In this document: positions 22,815-39,469 of the stretch, in pieces
How the letters are laid out: every line of letters begins with the position of its first letter
How positions within the stretch are numbered: the stretch's first letter is position 1
NCBI GenBank assembly: GCA_033439255.1
Contig: CM065882.1
Location: forward strand, 2,356,001 to 2,420,000
Length of the DNA: 64,000 bases
Direction of reading: 5' to 3'
Source: Hericium rajendrae
Lineage: Eukaryota > Basidiomycota > Agaricomycetes > Russulales > Hericiaceae
Position numbers and translations under genes: made by a program
The notes under the pieces: model-generated
The model's input: only the letters and a program-made list of their open reading frames with translations
Databases searched by the model: none
What the model was told of the DNA's origin: nothing

Positions 22815-22881
22815 TGTTGTAGTTAAGAGTCAACGCGCGCGACGCGCCGTGATCATGTGATATACTCGGACTGCATAGTTA
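22815..22881 (+). repeat. 5' LTR of the Copia element, left part
   Basis: 67 bp identical by eye to 38164-38230 in the 3' LTR. It stops at the TA where the 10.8-kb element is inserted. Confidence 0.9.
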
Positions 22882-23609
22882 CACCGCAAGATTTTGGCCA
22901 GGTTGTGACGAGCTGTGAGCATTGTCTGAGTCACGCCGCGCGATTCTGTTGTGTGAGGCCCTCCCCCAGCTGGCTGCCATGTCTTGCGGAAATAGACTCA
23001 GGCTGGATCCAGAGCATATGTGCGATCAGCCGCGTTGTATTCCTTGTTTCACCGTCATATCCACCCTCATTGTTACAGGACCTGTACATCACACAGCCGT
23101 TTCCTTATCTTATTGTCATGTATAACCTCAGCTTTGTTCTCGAAGAATAACAATGTCCAGTCCTCCCGATGTCTTAGGCCACACGGTGGTGCCCGACTGT
23201 GCTCCTCAGATATGTCAATCGGGGTGGATACCATGTGGAGGTGCACCTGCGGGACGGTCGCGCTCGCATGCGGTGTTCAGCTGCATAATTGTGTGGTTTC
23301 AGCGAGGCCGGTATCTTCTGTAGCCATGGAAGGCCAGCTGCTAACAGGAGGACATGCCATGACAGACAGCACGCACGCGGCGTGAAGTTGACAAAATAAG
23401 TACCTACAACGAGCATGGAAGACAGCTGTGGACATATGACAGATAGCTTATCGGCGGGGTCCACTGACCTGCCTTTTCGTGTTAAATTTCCTGTCGCACT
23501 GCAATTGACCACTGGCATAATGAAAGTTTTGAATGATTCATATTGCAGCTACAGTATTACAGCACAACCAAAGCGAACGAAAGATCTGGATTGTATGGAA
23601 GCAGAATAT
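22882..23609. other. Left subterminal region of the 10.8-kb element
   Basis: Non-coding as far as can be seen. It holds the terminal repeat and the presumed 3' UTR of the 327-aa gene. Only short open frames occur. Confidence 0.45.
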
Positions 23610-24959
23610 CTAAGCGTGGGCAGCGACAATGCCCTCAATGATCTCATCGACGCTCTGCTGGCGCTCGTCTACGGCGTCGTCATCGATTTCTGTCGCGTCG
23701 CTCCCGTGGACTTTGCGGTCGTCATTTAGATACTTCATAAAAGCTCTGCAAATCCAAGATGAGCAAGGGATGCATAGAGACCCGATGATAGACGCACCTC
23801 TTGACCTTCCTCATGTCACCATCGGACATCTTCCGTATCCAAGCCAGACGCTTATCGACACTGTCCCAGAAGCCGTCACTATCGTCCTTGGAAGATACAT
23901 AGAGCGCGCGCTGACAGATGAATCGAAATAATGAGCAGATAACATTTTAGGGATACATGATGACGTACCATCATTGCCACACGGCATGCAAGTGGCACCG
24001 TAACCTTGCAAGTTGTCTTGCGAACGAATAGAAGGGCGAGGGTGTATATATCCATGGCTTCATCCTTGTCGCCAAGGAGGCTTGCCTTGAGCTGCAAAAG
24101 CCTAAATGAAAGTGATGTTCGAAAATCAACGAACACACTTACATTTTTCTTCCATTGCGAGCGGAGTTGCGTGAGCGCATCTGAGACTGCGGAGACGACC
24201 TTGCTCCAGTCGGATGGGATTTGTTCTATGTGGAGCGGCAAACCAGGTCGGAACTTCTTCAACACGTTCTACCAAGGATGAGTGACAACACTTTTATTAG
24301 CGACACTGCTTGATGCAGTAAATGAGACTGACGACTTGCTAGAACATGATCGCGCGGAACATCGCCTTTATAGGCACGGATTTTTGCCGAGAGCAGCACA
24401 GAGATTGAATACTCATGAATATTTTTCTGCGCCGAAATCAAACTCAGCACGGAAACGTCGAAAGCAGAAAGACGGCAGACCTTGAGATCATCCGTGACCT
24501 GAAAAGGTGCCGTATTGACAATAATCTTGTCGACCTTGTTCTGGAGTGCGAGCTGGTTTACAAAGAGCTTAAACAGCTGCTCATTTGCACCACCCTGCAC
24601 AGAAAGAAAGAGATAAGACAGTGAATGCGTAGTAAAGGATAAGGCCCTACCTGTACAAAGTGCTCAACCTCGACAACCTGCTCGCTGCGAAGTCGCTTGC
24701 GCTCAGCGTAGCGTCTTGCTGCAAGGACCAGGTTACCGGCACTGATCACTGGGGCTGGGATTTGTGGTGTCGACCCAGATTCGCTGCCGTTGTTCTGAGG
24801 GCCTTGGCCATCGGCAGACGACTCCTGATCTTCGCCTGAAGTTGAGGCTGGATGGCTGGCAGGAGGCAACTGAGCCGGCAACAGAGAGGGAGAGCTTGGA
24901 GGGGAGCTATTCGCTTCCATCGCTGCCATAAATGGATCAACTTCCGTAGAATCGGACAT
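23610..24959 (-). CDS. Unrecognised 327-aa protein carried by the 10.8-kb element
   Basis: Exons 24959-24651, 24594-24481, 24426-24340, 24268-24143, 24091-23969, 23886-23798 and 23745-23610 join in frame. The third intron (24339-24269) uses a GC donor, GCAAGT. The N-terminal 75 residues are Ser/Pro-rich. Then come a helical basic stretch (LAARRYAERKRLRSEQVVEV) and an ordered region with DWSKVVSAVSDALTQLRSQWKK and FWDSVDKRLAWIRKM. The tail is acidic. I recall proteins of this shape as multi-copy accessory proteins of mushroom-forming fungi without known role, but cannot name a family. It may bind DNA or act in mobility of the host element; that is inference. Confidence 0.7.
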
Positions 24960-25794
24960 GGTGGACGGAAGGTGTGATGTGCAAATGGCTGATGGTGGGG
25001 GTGTGGGGGCCGTTGGAGATGAAAGCACACACCCTTTATGCCATCTGGCAGTTTGCCCAAGCACAGCGTGCCTCGGGCGCCGTCGCCCATGCAATTGTGT
25101 CGATGTCTCAAAGCACTTTGTTGGAGAGCAAGAGGACAATGCACGATTCCGGGGAAGTCGCCGCGGCGCGCGTCGCGATTGTGGCTGAGCGCTGAGCGCT
25201 CGTGCATTATCTTATCTCTCAATCTCAGTAAGTTAAGTTCACCACGCCGAGTCTTGCTGTTCTCACTCATCTCTCTCAACTTACATCGCAGGTATCGGTA
25301 TCAAACTCGGATTACGGAGTCAATCAATACAAGGACATGCCTCGCGCGACAACAGTGCGTGACGCGCTCGCAGGATTCTGACCCTCTCGTCGTCCCCCAC
25401 ACTCTCTGGATGCAATCTATTTGGACGACTGAACGTTTCACACGATGCGCGGCGTCGTGCACCGTACAATCGAGGTGCGTTCGTACTGCTTTGCGATATT
25501 CCTTGTCGCTGAGTCTGTGATTGCGTGTAGATTAGCTGTGCGGAGGGAAATAATCTGCATTTGGGCATTGAAGGCAGCGCGATGACAGAGCCGATGCAGA
25601 ATACGTACATTGCCTGGAGTCAATAGTCTCGTGCGATGCGCATGCTGATTTCCTCACAGGGTCCAGCTGCTCTCGACGCTTACGACTGATGACTGCAGAG
25701 TCGTCATCCCGGGTTTCTGTATGTCCGCTGACCTGCTAGCCAACAATGCACGAGCTCACAATTTTCGTATGCAGATGATCGCGTGCACCCGCAG
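24960..25794. other. Region between divergent genes in the 10.8-kb element
   Basis: Promoter region of the 327-aa gene, then short plus-strand frames. A start at 25445 with a splice to 25531 gives a short possible exon pair ending at 25628, too weak to call a gene. Confidence 0.35.
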
Positions 25795-26235
25795 GACAGT
25801 GCCGGCTGTTCACGCTCCTCAAGAGCATGACACAGATGCCCGCGTCGCTGCTCGCCGTGTGCTGCCGTGAGCCCTCCTTCATGATACATTGCATCCAAGG
25901 CTCCGGTCCCCGCAGTAAGCCCTTGCCCACTCCGCTCGCTCACTGGCACTAACCCCAACTCTGCAGACACAACCGTCATCCCCGCGTCCGTGACCGCACA
26001 GGTGTCCATGCCGCGCATCGTACCGGACCAAGATGTCAAGACGATCGGCTGCGCGCTCGCAGCCCATCTCCACGTGTCCTTCGCGGCGCTCAAGTCGCCG
26101 AACAAGCTGCGCGTCGTACTCGGGCACAGCGCAGACTGTTGGCTCGGTGACCTCATGCACCTCCATTTCTGTGCGCTGGAGCGCATGGTGCGCGACGAGC
26201 GGGGGATCGAGCTGCTGCAGATCTGCGAGGGCAGG
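25795..26235 (+). CDS. Two exons of an unrecognised gene or gene fragment
   Basis: Exons 25795-25914 and 25967-26235 join through a GT-AG intron and read continuously (about 129 residues; LLAVCCREPSFMIHC, TTVIPASVTAQVSMPRIVP, LRVVLGHSADCWLGDLMHL). The reading is too protein-like and too well phased to be chance. A start codon upstream of 25795 and the continuation after the donor at 26236 were not found. It may be a captured host-gene fragment inside the 10.8-kb element. The family is not recognised. Confidence 0.45.
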
Positions 26236-26552
26236 GTGTGTTTCCTTCCATGCTTGTTTTAGTGTCGTTGTTGTTAGCTGGACGCATACTAGTCGATTCC
26301 GTCCTCTTCCTCTCGGAGGCTTCCACCCTGCGCGAAGCCACCGTGCTCGTGCTCTCGCCATGCGGTTGAGACAGTCGACAGTGTGTGGGCATTCCCTCAC
26401 ACAGACTCACCTGCAACTGCTATGTCCCACTTGCATCCGCAATCACAGTGAGTACTTGTTCAATGGTTTGGCCATGGGTGCAGACATTCACATATGAATG
26501 ATGAGTACTTTAGAGTATATGTTAATTCAAATTGCTTTAATTCTCTTTTGGG

Positions 26553-29500
26553 TCAATGTCCATCTTCACCACCATCCCGTGCCTTCTTCCGTGCTGCGCG
26601 TTCCTTTTTCTTTTTTTGCTGTGTCTCGCGTAGCTGGTGAGCTATGTCGCTATGGCGTTGATGCCGTTCATTGTCTGGGAACACAGGGATAGGGCTGGTA
26701 AGGTGTCGAGGTAATGCTCGACGGAGGAGATGTGCATTGTGCAGTGCATGTAGGTTGATAATATAGGCATCCAGTGGCTGATGCTCGATGAATGCTTCAT
26801 GTTGGTCTGAGTCCATGCGCTCCTGTTGTACTGGTCGTAAACCTGATGCTTCGCATTTAGCTGCCTGGCAGTCATGTTGTACATTGACAATAAATTGAAC
26901 ATCCTGTGATCAGCTATAAGTACCTTCATATCAATGGGACAACAAATATAAAACATACTAGAGCTTGGACAATTATGAAGTGTTTCTCTTCAAAGCGACG
27001 ATGAAGTTGTGGCATTTCATAGAGTGGATGCCGCTGTGTCCCTACTTGGAAGACATCCAAGACTGCTATGGCATCAAGACCACTCTCAGCTGACAAGATT
27101 TCTATGATCTTTCCAATAATTGTCTCTTCCTGTCCATGAAAGAGAGTTAGATGAGAAAATCAGAATAGTTTCAGGCTTACCTGATTGTTGAGAGTAGAAA
27201 TTGCAAAAACCCAGGAGCCAATGATACATCTATCTTGTGAAGCAGATGTGAGATATATGGCAGGGTTCCATATATCTCTGATCTGCTGGAAGGCAGCAGC
27301 ATTAAGAGCTTGTGAGGCATAAGTAACATTCCATGGCTTCTGTGGTGGTTTCTTGGTCTGTTTGTCATTTGCCTCAAGTCGAACACTACCTTTATTTATG
27401 AGCATAATTTAATATGAGGTCATCAAATTTATAGATACTAGTACACTCACCTGGTATAGCTGCCTTTGTATCTTTCCAGCCAAGATGATTCTGGATAAAT
27501 GGATGATGATGTATAAAGTCTTGAATAGTAGCACTGGGATGCTCCCAGTCACCATCAGGTGTTGGCCACCATCCTCCCATGATGCGATGCTTTAAGCCCT
27601 CCTGATCAGCCAACTGTAAAGCAATATCCCGGCTTGGTGAGCGATGATTGGACAGAACTGAGCACATGCGAAAAATGGCATTGTAGCATTCATAGATCTC
27701 TGTGGCCATGCCAACAAGAGGACCAAAACGACGTGCATCATCAGGAATGTGAACAAGGAGATGAATCTTGATCTTTGAGAGTATCTTTGTAGGATCAATA
27801 AGTGCAAAGATATCCATGACATTGGCCACAGCAATCTTGACATCTGCCTAATGTATAATAAAAATTAGTTCTTGAAAATATATATAAAGTAGCTTTTATA
27901 ATCACTCACCATGTATTGTTCCATATTATCAATTTCTGGCACCCAGAGTAATGCCATAAGAATACCCACAGCCTTCCATAGACAAAAGGTGTTCTCATCA
28001 ACCAAATCATAAATATGAAAGATACTTGTCTGTCCAACAGTCTTCAACTGCCGTCCAATTAGAGAGTTTGCATACTGCATAATATATCCAGCACGAATGG
28101 GAGGAATTGTAAGACCATCTGTGTTTGTGGCCTGGAGCCTTCGTGAATAAGTTGTTTTGTAATTGAGGTCCAATGTGAATGTGAATGATACCAGACATAT
28201 TTAATGATGCCTAAGAGGATAACATGGAGAATCTCAATTGGTGTGTCTTGATTCACATCAAATCCTAAAATTATATTCAATAAAACATTATTTATTTAGT
28301 TGAAAAATAAACACAAAACCTTTGATGTCTAGATTGCCATTCATTACCTTCTCTGGATTTTCAGAAATCCATTCTTGCAATGCTTTGTAGACTTCCTCCT
28401 TTGATTGTCCTTCTGAGAATCTTGCACGAGCCTGTTGAATAAGATACTCAATGGTTGGTTGAATGTATGCATCTTTTACTCCAGTCTGGGTTTGTTGTTC
28501 CTGTACAGGCTTGGCAATACCTCTACATGCAAGGTTAACCTGTTTTGCAGTCTCTGCACGTGTGTCTGCTGCAGTTCGCAGCTTGCCAGGCTGAGAATAT
28601 TTTCAAATCAGATATTTCAAACCTAAAAACAAGATGCAAACCTTGAATAGACTCTGAAATCCAACATCTGTGGCCTTCTCCTCCTCACTTCCACCAACAC
28701 AGCATTTACGGCAATTGCAGTTAGCCTGAACTCCAATATGACCAGCCTCTTCACTTTGCATTGGATTGTCAGATGGCTCAGCATTGAGGCAAAGGCGAAA
28801 TCGAGCACTGTCGCCTGTAGCTGCATCATACACCTTGATTGGAGTCTTTTGAGTTGATCTTGAAAATTAAGATTAATGCTATAATGTTAAAAAGTTAAAA
28901 GCACATACTCAACAAGTTCTTTAAATGCCTGAATCTGTTCACTAACTGTGGCATTTGGTGATGTGAAAGAAAATGAACATGAAATTCTTGCTGCAAGAGA
29001 TGACGAGGAAGATTACGATGGGTGAAATATGTATTCCAGTGTTTGTTCCATGATTTTGAGCGATTACCAGAGACATCATCTCCAAACAAGTCAACAAAGC
29101 TTGTGTATAAGGGATCACCATCAGCCTTTGCACGTAATGGGTTTGGCATCTTCTTCATCCATATCTCAGTACAGGATGCTAAATCAATGACCAATCAATT
29201 TTAAACAAGGTAAAGATGAAATATATTATGAGCATACCTGCTAGATATGGAAGAGCACCTTTATCTTGAAGATCAAGGTAATTTTGAACAAGATCACTTG
29301 CTTGAATGAGAACTTGAACATTGTCTTCAATTTTGTATCCATCCTGCAAATCTTGATATAAGCCTTAGCTTATAACAAAACTCAACATAAAATTTACCTC
29401 ACTCTCAATCAAGTTGTGTCCATCAGCATACATCTTGCCTTTCCAGAGAACCCATCGAATTGGAACAACAAAAGTACCAGTCTTCATCTGTGCTATCTCA

Positions 29501-30755
29501 TCCACATAATAATGTTTTGATCCATTTTCATACATAGGGGTCAAGAGCGAAGAGTCCATCTCTTTTTGCCACTTTTCACCATGCCAGATTTCTGATATCG
29601 GACCATTTGGAATCTCAGGATAGAAATGAAGGTGTGGCCGAACAAGAGGATTTGAATAGTCCTGATAGTAAGGTGAGTAAAGGGTCATCTAAAAGTAGAG
29701 ATAATATACCTTTGCAATGATAGATCGTATATCATTCATGAAGAAGATATTCCCGTGCATCGACCGGAATCGATGTGTCGGGATGCCACAACGTGCCCGG
29801 AGATTGCTTTGCACTTTTCGTAAATGGTCTAAGCTAGGCACATCATGCACACCACTCTGGCGTAGAAGCCAGAGTATGACTGACATCATCGAATCTGACA
29901 TCCTGAGTCGGGGAAGATTGTCGATGGTGTCCAACAAGAATAGCTATGGTAATATCCCATGTCAGCTTGAGCACACTGCACCATTTGGGTTGAAAAGCAT
30001 ACCATCTTCGACTCGTATGGGAACCATTCCGATTCACGAGATGGGAGCTTTGTATTACCATCATCAAATTCCAGCCGGTGTATGTCCTCGCTCTCCGGTG
30101 CGTGAATCCCTAATCATATTGCAAAAGACATCAATGTGGTGTAATGCGTCAACAACATATACGTACTCATCTCTTGCAGAACATTCGTGAGTGTATCATC
30201 GACGTCGGGGTCCATAAGATCCCCAACTTCGAAGTCCTCGTCAGCTCCACCCAGCCGTCGTCCAGCTGCTTCTGCATCCCAAAGTCCAAAGCCCTCAGTG
30301 GCCTTGAGGAATTGGCTGCGCTCGTCAAGGTGAGTCAGAGCGTCAGTGCCCATATCGAAATCGGTGTTCGACGGCTCGTAGGTATCCCACATCTGAGTCT
30401 CTTCGGCACTTGTGTCTTGCCTGATGTTCGAGCGGGACTGTCCAAGACCGAGAGAAAATGCTGGCAAAGATGGGATGGTAGCTGGCTGCGCGAAGGCTGT
30501 CTGCACGTTCTGAAGTGCAGCTTCAATTTGCGTAGCATGGCTCTGCCGATCTTGCTGATCAAGGAGAGACTGGGCATGCTTAGCTGTCCTGAGATGTGCG
30601 GATACGTTTTTGGACACGATCCACTGCTCGTTCTCGGGAAGTCGTGCACATACAGTGCACTTTGCCGTTTTTCGATCTTCCGAAAAGACGATATCTATGA
30701 CAAATTCAGCAACTGAATCTTGATGAAGGAAAGTCCTCACATTCCGGATATACAT
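26553..30755 (-). pseudogene. Long transposon-type protein gene, interrupted by frameshifts
   Basis: Phased exons: 30755-30167, 30109-30003, 29943-29710, 29661-29398, 29343-29238, 29178-28909, 28858-28642, 28590-28320, 28264-27910, 27847-27451, 27389-27181, then less certain exons to the stop at 26553. The N terminus has a C2H2-like motif (CTVCARL ... HLRTAKHAQ). The middle holds [18 protein letters not shown] and [18 protein letters not shown], typical as I recall of a large multi-copy agaricomycete family with no experimental function. The C terminus is Lys/Arg-rich. Two frameshifts are seen, near 28970 and between 28150 and 28210. The part from about 26850 to 29700 is much richer in A and T than the exons upstream. 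It is the best candidate for the mobility gene of the element, but no catalytic triad could be defined. Confidence 0.6.
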
Positions 30756-31310
30756 TCCTGGGAGGCATTATTGCTGCAGCTGTGCTTTAAGTTGCTGGAG
30801 AGTCGAGTCGAAGTCAAGCACTGGAGCAGTCGAGCGTACGAGTCCGACAGTGGTCCCGGTCAGTCCCCGATTGGGTCCTTCTAACTTTTCGCGCGTGAGC
30901 ACTGAGTGGGAACGTGCGGGAACCTCTCTCTTTCGTGCGCTGCTCTCACTTATGTAGGTCGATTTTTTCACAATGCCCGCTGGGTCCATTGGGTAGACCA
31001 GAGCCATGGTTCGTTGTGTACTTGCTCGTTCGGTTTCGCTTATCTCAGACTCGGACTGACTCCTTTGTCCCGCTCTTCTAGGGATCCCCCACTTTGACTG
31101 GCTCTGACCACCGTGCAGGTGGTCGAGCGGTCGCGCGCTGCCCAGCAACCTCATTGAGCAACAAGTTGGCGACTTCTATGTAATGCAGGCGCACATCGAC
31201 ACGCTGCAGGGCATGTTTGGTGCGAGGTGGTGTGGGTTGGGATAGATGCGGGACAGGCGCGGGACAAGGCAGTCGTTGCAGCCTGGTGCGCGCGGGAGTC
31301 TTAGCGTGCC
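30756..31310. other. Region upstream of the transposon-type gene
   Basis: A minus-strand frame from 31154 to 30768 (beginning MRLLGSARPLD) ends just before the start of the long gene and could be a short upstream gene or an untranslated exon. No motif is recognised. Confidence 0.35.
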
Positions 31311-31954
31311 GAGCATGCAGCAGCTCGTGCGCGACGGCGCGATCGGCGACGTGCGCTTCTTCCGCGCAGCCGTGACCGACTGAATCAACGAGAACAGCAA
31401 GGGGCACAAGATGCCCCGGCACACGTACCCCGATGTGCGTGTTCCTCTCCCTTTCTCGGCCCTCACTGACTCTCATGCAGACCTAAGGCCACTTCCTCCT
31501 CGACGGCGGTGTGCACTTCGCCACGGCGCGCTGCACGCTCTTTCCGAGCCTGCTCATGCACCTCACCGCCCTCTCCTCGCTCAAAAGTCTTTCCTTGCAC
31601 CCTCTGGCACTCTCGAAATCACATTCGCCGCGCCCGCGCTCGGCGCCGGCTATGGCTATGTCCTCACCGGCTCCAAGGGCTGGTTCGACGTCGCCAACAC
31701 GCTCGCGCAGGACGGACAGCCCGCGCGGCAGCGCGTCGTCGTACACGCGGTCGACGAGAAGGGCGAGGTGAGCGAGGAGGTCGTAGAGGAGTGCGTGCGC
31801 CCGTCGAGGCGGAGCTGCAGAGCTTTTCCGAGGCACTCAGCGGGGAATGGCGACGGCACGCAGGGCCCGCACGCTTGCAGATGTCGTGGTCGTGCAGGCC
31901 GCGCTCGAGAGCGCTCGGCAGCTCGTGGATCTGCAGGCACTCGTGACCGTGTAA
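31311..31954 (+). pseudogene. Broken Gfo/Idh/MocA-type oxidoreductase fragment
   Basis: The frames together read like the C-terminal domain of the NAD(P)-dependent Gfo/Idh/MocA family: QLVRDGAIGDVRFFRAA, then LLDGGVHFATA with the family's GG-H pattern, GYVLTGSKGWFDV, ELQSFSEALSG, and a closing VVVQAALESARQLVDLQ before a stop at 31952-31954. An in-frame stop at 31379-31381 and at least two frame changes show that it is not functional. The N-terminal Rossmann part is not seen. It lies inside the 10.8-kb element and so looks like captured and decaying host sequence. Confidence 0.7.
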
Positions 31955-32354
31955 GATTGATGTGTGAATGAATGGCAAGCTATGAAATAGTAAAATGTAC
32001 GACCGAATATACAGTGAGAATATCCCGTGGAAGACGGTGTCTGGCAAGCACACTGCATGAGCCTTGTGTACACAACAAAGACATCTGTTTGTTACTCTGA
32101 ATCCACCATCGGCATGCTAAAATCTACAGCACCCAGTCTCTCTGTAACATACGACAACTGCCCATGGTCAGACAAGCGACTGCGTTGGGTCTGCTCGGTA
32201 TATTCATAGGGCCATGCGGTTCGGCGAGAAGGCGTGTGAGGCGGCCTCGGTCCAGTATGTGTCGCAAGTCGTGAATACGATGCGCACGACTTGATAGCCA
32301 GGCGAGCATATCGGGCAACCTGCATAGATTAATCAGCACGTTAGTCGTCTGAAG

Positions 32355-33117
32355 CTACTCGTTCTGTGCATGTGTCAAACTGCGCCGTACCGAGACTGCC
32401 TCTGACCAACGGAGCATCGGCTCTGATAACCCCTAGGAAAAGAATATGATTAAGTATCTTATCGTTTACCACAGTGAGACGCACTGACCTTGTTGATGTT
32501 GATTGGTTCCATAGCCAGCCAGGCAAAGAGATCCGAAATCATACCTCTTGGCTGCTTGAAGGTAATCTCCTCACCATTCTCCATACTTTTGTACCAGTCC
32601 GGGGCAAAGATGTCATTATAGTAACCCTCATGGTGCTCAAGGATAGCGGCCGGACTCTCCTGCCACCACACAAGTACACCCGATTCAGGAGATAAGGAGA
32701 CGGTGAGGAGGAGGATGGAGTTATCGATATCGACAGTGAAGAGCTCGTTCGCGTCCGTTTCGCACTACAATTTAATGAGCAAATGTTACATATGGCAGTA
32801 AAAAATAAACGCACCGGACGACGGACCTTCTTCAGTCGACAAAGCACCTCCTCGGGGAAAAGACTTGTAGTAGGGAGTCTAGGATCTGCTCGCGCATAGT
32901 TACTTATGTTAGCTTGAATCCACTGATCGAGGGGGGTCGGATATCCAGGGTCGTCGCGCCATTGGATCATACGTCGGCCGGCGACCGTGTCAGGATTGTA
33001 CGGATTAACGGGGAATGCAGGCGTCTGCGACGAGGAAGGTCGAATCGAAACAGGAAGGCGCCGCGGGCGCCGATGTCGAACGGGAGGGGAAGGCGTCAAA
33101 GGCGGCGTCGGTGCCAT
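32355..33117 (-). CDS. Unrecognised 218-aa protein carried by the 10.8-kb element
   Basis: Exons 33117-32815, 32764-32489 and 32432-32355 join in frame through GT-AG introns. The N terminus is Pro/Arg-rich; then come PLDQWIQANISNYARADPRLP, VDIDNSILLLTVSLSPES and MISDLFAWLAMEPININK. No signal peptide or membrane segment is seen. The gene is intact, unlike its neighbour the oxidoreductase fragment. The family is not recognised. Confidence 0.6.
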
Positions 33118-33658
33118 GACTGGTGGATGTCGAACGTCCGCAGCCAAGTCAGTTCAGTAAACACGACAGGACTCAGCAATCGGCAGTATTTGCTATAATG
33201 ATCAAGACCTGGTCGGACACCTGGATGTGAGCTGGGATCCAGCCTCTGCATGTCTGCCAGGGCACATCTGCGACAGACAAAGGACAATCTGAGACTCACC
33301 TCGCCCAATGATAGAAGCGGCGTGCTTCCGCCGCCTGCAAAACAGAAAACAACAATAAAGATACCACATGTCCTCACCCAAAAGTGTCCCACATGCGACA
33401 TTAATGCCTACTCTCCGGCCATCAGAGACACAGCCCATTTGTCGAGGGTGAAACTAGGTCCCAAGGAAAGCCAGTACTGAGCTCAGACGCAGCCAGTCTC
33501 AGATAGATCACAGAACAGAACAAGATAATTGCACGCGGAGGTTATAAAGACATTAGTGCTGTAAGACATACAGGTACGATGCTATTGTCGTGTATCTGGC
33601 TACCAGTATCTAAGCTGACGTTATCAGCCTCGGCCTACCCGACGCGACTCTTGCGGTG
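33118..33658. other. Right subterminal region of the 10.8-kb element
   Basis: Holds the promoter side of the 218-aa gene and the right terminal repeat. Short frames only. Confidence 0.4.
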
Positions 33659-33892
33659 TACCTTACGAAAAACTTTTCTTTCTCCCCTTCCCTCAGTACT
33701 CTATCCGAGATACTGAGGTCAGTACTTACTTTATTCCCCCTTCGTTCCGAGACTGATTTTACCTGTAGAATACATTGGTTATTTCCTCGCAGGTATTTAC
33801 TTACAGTCTCGTCAGTACTCTATCCGAGATACTGAGAATACATTGGTTATTTCCTCGCAGTCGCTAATCGCTCCGCTCGTTGCCCCACAATA
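33659..33892 (+). repeat. 5' LTR of the Copia element, right part
   Basis: Resumes the LTR after the 10.8-kb insertion; the first two bases are the duplicated TA. It contains an internal direct repeat (CAGTACTCTATCCGAGATAC and GAATACATTGGTTATTTCC each occur twice) and ends CCCCACAATA. Confidence 0.9.
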
Positions 33893-38163: not shown

Positions 38164-38298
38164 TGTTGTAGTTAAGAGTCAACGCGCGCGACGCGCCGTG
38201 ATCATGTGATATACTCGGACTGCATAGTTACCTTACGAAAAACTTTTCTTTCTCCCCTTCCCTCAGTACTCTATCCGAGATACTGAGGTCAGTACTTA
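38164..38298 (+). repeat. 3' LTR of the Copia element, left part
   Basis: Starts TGTTGTAG directly after the short purine-rich tract GAGCGGGCG and runs to the GTACTTA target of the 1-kb insertion. Confidence 0.92.
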
Positions 38299-39298
38299 TG
38301 GTGAGGGGCAACGCATAGGGATTTAAACTCCGAAACCGTCCGCGCCACATCCCCCTCAACGCTTGAGAGACATGGTAGGGGGAAGTGTGAGCTTCCACGG
38401 CCGCGCGAAAATTCAATTATCATCGTGTTAAATCATAACAAATCGATTGGAGATGTTTCTATAAATCAAATCTGGAAAAGCACTGTTCGTTTTCGGTAGG
38501 GCCTCATGAGCAGAACAGCTTTCAGGTAGGTTCGTGCACTTTCGGGACAGTTTTGGTACTTTTAATTTATCCAAATGACTGGGACAGATTTTAGATGATT
38601 TATGGTAACATTTTCCTAATATACCTATGCGCGAGGGGGTCAAAGTTTCCCCCACCCAAAGCAGGCCCGAACGGGCATAAGCGCCCAGCGAGACGCGCGC
38701 AAACGCGCTTTACATAATCAAATTTCGACGCGTCGCGTGCGTTGATCAAGCCAACAAAAAGGCGTTCGACCTCTGCCTCACTCCCTACAGCCATAACGTT
38801 GTGATCTAACACTCCAATAGTGTTTGTAAAGTCATTAGAAAGCATTTGATTCAAGCCTTATTCAAGATTAGCAGGGCTAGAATGAGAAAGGAGAGTAGAA
38901 CGGAGAGATCAGTACTGCTTCTCTCGAAGCTCATTGAAAGCCAGATTGGGGTCATGGTAGTATCAAATTATCATGAGACTATCTTATATGAGTATTAGGT
39001 GTGTCCAAAGCTCGCCAGAAGGCCCCGTAATCTCGGACGAAGGGGACTGAATGAGAATGATGAAGGGGCCTGAGGTACACATTAAATTCTCTCGAAATGG
39101 CTTTTGTACATGCCTTGTACTCTTGCAAATAACTACTTCTTTTCATTTAAAAGCTAATCTGAATTTATTATATTTTTCTGGAGGTTCCGATGTTGAGAAT
39201 CTGTGCGCGCTCGCCCGCGACCACATCCTCGAGCACATTTCGTGCGTGAGAGCAGCACGTGACCTGGACGCTTTTCGAAGCGGCGTTGCCCCTCACCA
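38299..39298. mobile_element. 1,000-bp non-autonomous element with 16-bp inverted ends in the 3' LTR
   Basis: The left end TGGTGAGGGGCAACGC is the exact inverse of the right end. GTACTTA stands on both sides (38292-38298, 39299-39305), while the 5' LTR has it once. If the last base is assigned differently the duplication is 8 bp (AGTACTTA). No open frame of note lies inside, so the element must be moved in trans. The superfamily cannot be fixed from the ends alone. Confidence 0.88.
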
Positions 39299-39305
39299 GT
39301 ACTTA

Positions 39306-39469
39306 CTTTATTCCCCCTTCGTTCCGAGACTGATTTTACCTGTAGAATACATTGGTTATTTCCTCGCAGGTATTTACTTACAGTCTCGTCAGTACTCTAT
39401 CCGAGATACTGAGAATACATTGGTTATTTCCTCGCAGTCGCTAATCGCTCCGCTCGTTGCCCCACAATA
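39306..39469 (+). repeat. 3' LTR of the Copia element, right part
   Basis: 164 bp completing the 299-bp LTR, identical by eye to the corresponding part of the 5' LTR. Confidence 0.92.

Follow-up and report, generated by a model that had tools for sequence, protein, structure and literature searches.

The CMCT clade of transposons comprises CACTA/EnSpm, Mirage, Chapaev and Transib together with Plavaka and ESTA, and its transposases are described as carrying the motif order D, D, C(2)C, H(3-4)H, E, in elements that mostly have 5'-CA..TG-3' ends and duplicate 2 to 5 bp of their target (PMC12730594, Kojima 2025). In CACTA relatives from animals, 2-bp direct repeats adjoin the element (PMC1636069). 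The locus compared here with these systems lies in a window of 64,000 nucleotides (contig C5:2356001-2420000) from the assembly GCA_033439255.1 of Hericium rajendrae (46.8 Mb, 19 contigs), where an element of 10,777 bp with ends CACCGCAAGA...TCTTGCGGTG occupies window positions 22882-33658. With a probability of roughly 0.8, we read it as a three-gene, TA-targeting cut-and-paste CMCT transposon, the genes being a transposase gene and two accessory genes, named g327 (accessory gene 1) and g218 (accessory gene 2). The family is real, well bounded and multi-copy, and its mechanism is ordinary; its unusual features are the two constant accessory genes and a TA duplication combined with CAC..GTG ends.

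The borders of the element could be read from a nested insertion, which supplies both an exact empty site and the order of events. The element interrupts a long terminal repeat (LTR) of Copia, whose left part lies at 22815..22881 on the + strand and whose right part lies at 33661-33892. The partner LTR (38164-38298 plus 39306-39469) shows the uninterrupted sequence GTTACC where the interrupted one reads GT-TA-[CACCGCAAGA...TCTTGCGGTG]-TA-CC, with the two copies of the TA target duplication at 22880..22881 and 33659..33660. The terminal inverted repeats, CACCGCAAGA at 22882..22891 on the + strand and its counterpart at 33649..33658 on the - strand (TCTTGCGGTG when read on the + strand), are perfect (10/10 bp), and by our own estimate such a match at fixed borders would arise by chance in about 1 in 10^6 cases (4^-10). 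The termini read CACCG..CGGTG, and the end type of the element is CACCGCAA. No differences between the two LTRs were found over 299 comparable bases, excluding the 999-bp insertion that the partner LTR carries, and a TCGAC duplication flanks Copia on both sides. As the LTR is interrupted and TCGAC is present on both sides of Copia, Copia was inserted first and the element second, and thus the element moved after the Copia insertion. The identity of the LTRs suggests a young move of the element. An earlier note on the window, made from its sequence alone, had described a 10.8-kb element with borders fixed by the uninterrupted LTR, 10-bp inverted repeats, a TA duplication, identical Copia LTRs and movement after Copia, and all of this agreed with our results, the borders to the base. 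Taken alone, the window would also be compatible with a 3-bp TAC duplication, and this candidate was rejected because the other three double-ended copies show TA and then TAG. The 999-bp insertion in the partner LTR (38299-39297) is a small non-autonomous DNA transposon, possibly of the hAT-like type; its inverted ends are GGTGAGGGGCAACGC, and it has an 8-bp repeat, AGTACTTA.

Copies and relatives were sought within the H. rajendrae assembly only. Four double-ended copies were detected: the window element, a second full-length copy at C5:633592-644518 (hereafter copy 2), a third full-length but diverged copy of 9,877 bp at C6:3110533-3120409, and, at C7:1972351-1974240, a derivative of 1,890 bp that retains both ends. 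TA was found on both sides in all four of them. In addition, left ends only were found on C3 and C4, both adjoining TA. Copy 2 showed identities to the window of 75.6% (22882-23015), 86.9% (23631-25234), 89.5% (26511-31107) and 88.9% (31109-33658). DNA queries with the left end matched at C7, at C4 and at the second C5 place besides the window, and the right-end query matched at the second C5 place. The left end of the C6 copy was located by BLAST: three queries agreed on its first base, with clear matches for two (E 6e-6 and 8e-7) and a weak match for the third (E 0.12). A 22-base left-end pattern allowing up to 3 mismatches was found at 5 places, and a right-end pattern at 6 places, corresponding to four right ends, the left end of the window element and a weak match on C14; the reversed controls gave 0 matches for both patterns, which were built from the same copies that they detect. 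The weak match, at C14:1606324-1606346, has 3 mismatches and adjoins CA, not TA. A search for subterminal repeats in the terminal 350 bp on each side revealed no 7-mer with three or more occurrences at one end. The other copies share the inner genes as well as the ends, in line with the mobile DNA element proposed in the earlier note, which had named as refuting it a lack of further ends, or inner genes always lying without them; neither was the case in this one genome.

The transposase gene (26553..30768, - strand), which had not been named in the earlier note, was modelled with about 15 exons and about 1,130 amino acids, both figures being estimates; its exon model, like those of g327 and g218, is our own prediction. 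A C2H2-like finger motif was recognized by eye close to the N terminus, and it is followed by the motifs DDVSGN, SDNPM, CRKC, HLLVH and MATEIYE, in this order, which were assigned by eye as DD-C2C-H3H-E against the description in PMC12730594 and from which the identity of the catalytic residues is predicted. With this motif order, and with CAC..GTG ends and TA in 4/4 double-ended copies, the element would be placed in the CMCT clade. Comparison of the window gene with that of copy 2 gave a ratio of non-synonymous to synonymous substitution (dN/dS, Nei-Gojobori, own script) of 0.118 over 958 codons in 11 exon stretches, with about three exons around and after two frameshifts excluded. A longer upstream start was rejected, as comparison with the copies puts the start at 30768. 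A sequence search of the PDB with the transposase gave no match. The 3' part of the gene (26553-29700) showed a guanine plus cytosine (GC) content of 0.40 versus 0.52 for the window, and it is AT-rich likewise in copy 2 and in the C6 and C3 copies (GC 0.39-0.42). A single-exon search for relatives of the transposase gave, among the best candidates, 9 matches, four of them close (at least 77% amino acid identity) and five diverged (34-42%). The diverged CMCT-type transposases are located at C6:285099, C11:1876046, C18:237991, C8:104540 and C8:893155 (L019 to L023, in this order). In a motif comparison made over 3-kb pieces, L019 and L021 kept all five motifs and L020 kept the four that were covered, L023 covering the last one only.

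The accessory genes g327 (23610..24959, - strand, 7 exons, 335 amino acids) and g218 (32092..33117, - strand, 4 exons, 282 amino acids) are both intact, in copy 2 as well as in the window. The earlier note had described intact genes of 327 and 218 amino acids; their intactness stood, and the lengths had to be changed, in the case of g218 because the reading frame of 282 amino acids is conserved in the diverged copies. Between the window and copy 2, the dN/dS was 0.151 over 332 codons for g327 and 0.272 over 282 codons for g218; together with the value for the transposase, these ratios show purifying selection on the three genes for one pair of copies. No exon indels were present in g218, and g327 presented only a 6-base gap at its C terminus. 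Among the best candidates of the genome search, 24/24 exon matches of g327 and 9/9 of g218 fell at the four loci where a transposase closely related to that of the window lies, and none was detected at the five diverged transposases. In the C3 copy g327 reads through without a stop, and in the C6 copy tblastn recovered it as four exon blocks; the one stop there lies in intron sequence that separates two aligned parts of exons. This co-occurrence at four loci, together with purifying selection, argues that g327 and g218 behave as element genes rather than as cargo, and their predicted role is most likely in the same transposition process, for example in end binding or anti-silencing. No significant Pfam or PDB match was found for g327, nor for g218 over its first 193 amino acids, and Pfam scans of single exons and fragments gave sub-threshold matches only. 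The rejected candidates were ACAS_N for g327, a match that at E 0.0017 did not reach its cut-off, and, as chance matches in the PDB, apolipoprotein A-I for g327 (best E 0.036) and a match of g218 (E 0.21). The fold predicted for exon 2 of g218 alone, with a mean predicted local distance difference test score (pLDDT) of 49.6, was of too low a quality to be searched for similar folds.

The order of the genes differs among the copies. In the C6 and C3 copies, the transposase gene is antiparallel to g327, with the 5' ends facing each other, whereas in the window and copy 2 the transposase gene, g327 and g218 all have the same direction. The C6 and C3 transposases are 61.7% identical to each other and 63.6 and 64.2% identical to that of the window. 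As they are thus no nearer to each other than to the window, the head-to-head arrangement is probably ancestral.

Host DNA has been captured on both sides of the transposase gene in the window. The first fragment, at 25446..26318 on the + strand, includes introns, is 80% identical to C3:1223777-1224654 and is absent from copy 2. Its source gene looks like an M20 dipeptidase, presumably Dug2-like, and no Pfam match was found on the pieces scanned. At the same position, copy 2 contains about 1.1 kb of other sequence, 103 bp of which are 80% identical to C4:2952087, where the gene model has an MMS19 domain (PF14500, E 2.4e-77). The second fragment (31109..31354, + strand) is about 70% identical to C2:2430704-2430913, a host gene that looked leucine-rich or F-box-like by eye and gave no Pfam match, and its first part is present in copy 2 too. 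The third (31320..31988, + strand), also present in copy 2, derives from a Gfo/Idh/MocA oxidoreductase gene and is 77% identical, with out-of-frame gaps, to C2:1876920-1877624, where the host gene carries PF01408 (E 2.9e-17); it corresponds to the broken metabolic gene of the earlier note, which is accompanied by the two other host-gene fragments beside the transposase. Alignments of the first and third fragments with their host counterparts showed several out-of-frame gaps, some of them possibly intronic. The block 31109-31980, common to the window and copy 2 (86%), presented 7 gap runs between them, 4 of them out of frame, and the non-coding right end presented 1 gap run in 538 columns. These three host-gene fragments are the only true cargo of the element, and the copy-specific ones show that a fungal cut-and-paste element of full length has captured pieces of genes. 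Host fragments were also sought in the 1.9-kb C7 element, where the genome gave no match except short repeats adjoining that element, and in C6:3117695-3118884, which covers most of the interval between the transposase and g218, with no match elsewhere in the genome.

Several observations weigh against the reading of the element as a three-gene CMCT transposon. No intact transposase was found among the copies checked, that is, the window, copy 2, C3 and the C6 copy, the last compared without 345 of its 9,877 bp. Two single-base frameshifts distinguish the window gene from those of copy 2, C6 and C3, the copy 2 gene has a deletion across one splice acceptor and the C3 gene is split by a 51-kb insertion; clear present-day autonomy can thus be assigned to none of these copies, and single-base changes may be errors of the assembly. 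The frameshifted gene in the window implies either decay after landing or movement by a source acting in trans. Pfam scans of the transposase exons and of the spliced protein revealed no family at its cut-off. The only transposase-related match was DUF4218, a family linked to CACTA, with E values of 0.045 and 0.083, far below the cut-off, and the other single-exon matches were at chance level; motifs, rather than a scored family or a tree, are therefore the basis of the placement in the clade. Among the diverged relatives, L022 deviates in its motifs, with N replacing D in both acidic ones, and is probably a decayed copy. At the C3 locus, g218 is 81-86% identical to that of the window, but the identity falls to 66% in the transposase and to 68% in g327, and 8 kb separate g218 from the transposase. 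These differences in identity and this distance make the locus composite, perhaps two elements, and it was given less weight because of this and of its split transposase. Furthermore, all selection ratios come from the single pair of the window element and copy 2, the genome searches scored best candidates only, so that absence elsewhere is a lower bound, and the few gaps in the non-coding right end leave the indel contrast weak by itself. Finally, fungal EnSpm elements are described with a 3-bp duplication, from which the element differs in showing TA only (PMC12730594).

The 51-kb insertion at the C3 locus (about C3 2476512-2527825), a possible giant element seen from its ends, lies between inverted repeats that are at least 351 bp long and 98.6% identical; related repeats follow farther inside, and 11 bp of the target may be duplicated. 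Another insertion, of 7.4 kb (C3 2457880-2465334), interrupts exon 2 of the g218 homologue.

Other explanations of the locus have to be weighed against the three-gene transposon. The earlier note had presented the element as carrying mixed cargo that included two intact genes, and its size (10,777 bp), its many genes and the host-gene fragments inside it would suit a new large cargo transposon in which g327 and g218 are host genes benefiting the fungus, as in Starships. We consider this improbable: among the best candidates, neither gene has a match outside the four element loci in the 46.8-Mb genome, g327 persists in copies that have diverged to 55-68% nucleotide identity, and the true host fragments differ from both genes in having host paralogues and out-of-frame gaps. 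The description of the two genes as cargo consequently found no support, since they recur with the transposase at four loci and under purifying selection. The flipped orientation of the transposase relative to g327 in C3 and C6 versus the window and copy 2, and the captured fragments on both of its sides in the window, could also be understood if the element were a non-autonomous shell moved by an unrelated transposase, with the CMCT-like gene as a nested passenger. That would be hard to reconcile with the presence of this gene in all three full-length copies and in C3, with its dN/dS, the lowest of the three genes, and with CAC...GTG ends and a 2-bp duplication that fit a CMCT enzyme (PMC12730594), and we regard it as just as improbable. 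Very unlikely indeed is a Pack-type origin, from a known EnSpm family with transduplicated fragments in which all the non-transposase genes are chance acquisitions; host-gene capture has been reported for plant CACTA elements (PMC8978399), but g327 and g218 are intact in two copies, occur at four loci and are under purifying selection, and the duplication is TA rather than 3 bp.

For the three-gene CMCT transposon, we propose that a DDE transposase with a zinc-finger-like N terminus, whose motifs are present in the window gene, would, once bound to the CACCGCAAG ends, cut out the element by a catalysis predicted from these motifs and insert it at TA, generating the 2-bp duplication observed. 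The two selected element proteins most likely act in this process too; they might, for example, bind the ends together with it, as the partner protein TNPA does in plants, or help in anti-silencing, in the manner of the TET/JBP proteins that other transposons of fungi encode; a 2014 report is said to have dealt with TET/JBP-linked fungal transposases. The host pieces, one of which clearly retains introns, were copied in as genomic DNA, probably through template switching during break repair, and are now decaying. A more specific proposal, which we put forward only tentatively and consider rather doubtful as a whole, is a separate basidiomycete CMCT lineage that would need the transposase and two co-inherited proteins to move, with the head-to-head arrangement as the ancestral state, flipped in the C5 lineage with host fragments on both sides. 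The g327 and g218 proteins are direct candidates for a role in fungal transposition, either as partners of the transposase or as factors against silencing, and automatic annotation would probably label their genes as host genes.

In relation to other mobile elements, Helitrons have no inverted ends and no target duplication and encode a helicase, and the element differs from them in its inverted ends and TA duplication, a helicase not having been specifically searched for. Starships carry a tyrosine-recombinase captain at one end; Pfam scans, as far as pieces were submitted to them, showed no tyrosine-recombinase family, and the inverted ends and DDE-type gene of the element argue against membership in this group. 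Pfam includes a Plavaka model, and no transposase model of Pfam attained its cut-off with either the exons or the spliced protein. Among the matches listed, the open-licence literature, searched by title and start of abstract, contained no account of the present family. Like the element, PlavakaA, with a 2-bp duplication, and PlavakaB, with one of 2 to 3 bp, have CMCT motifs, but their termini (TGT..ACA and CATCA..TGATG, respectively) differ from the CACCG..CGGTG of the element (PMC12730594). ESTA, an EnSpm-like group, combines a TA duplication with CMCT-type motifs as the element does, a likeness by description only, whereas the KDZ elements Zisupton and Kyakuja differ from it in duplicating 8 or 7 bp (PMC12730594). 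Fungal EnSpm/CACTA elements share with it the 5'-CAC..GTG-3' ends and the D-D-C(2)C-H(3)H-E order, and extra genes (TET/JBP) ride along in them, in place of which the element has two genes without a significant Pfam match (PMC12730594). Oversized multigene elements of the CACTA type, as this one is, have also been described in the red alga Chondrus crispus, where enlarged En/Spm elements measure 16-20 kb with 4-5 open reading frames, the likeness again being one of description and not of sequence (PMC6431247). Finally, gene-capturing CACTA elements of plants contain fragments of host genes (PMC8978399; PMC8903248), as the Hericium element does, which in contrast to them carries such fragments on both sides of its transposase gene, at full length and together with two constant accessory genes.

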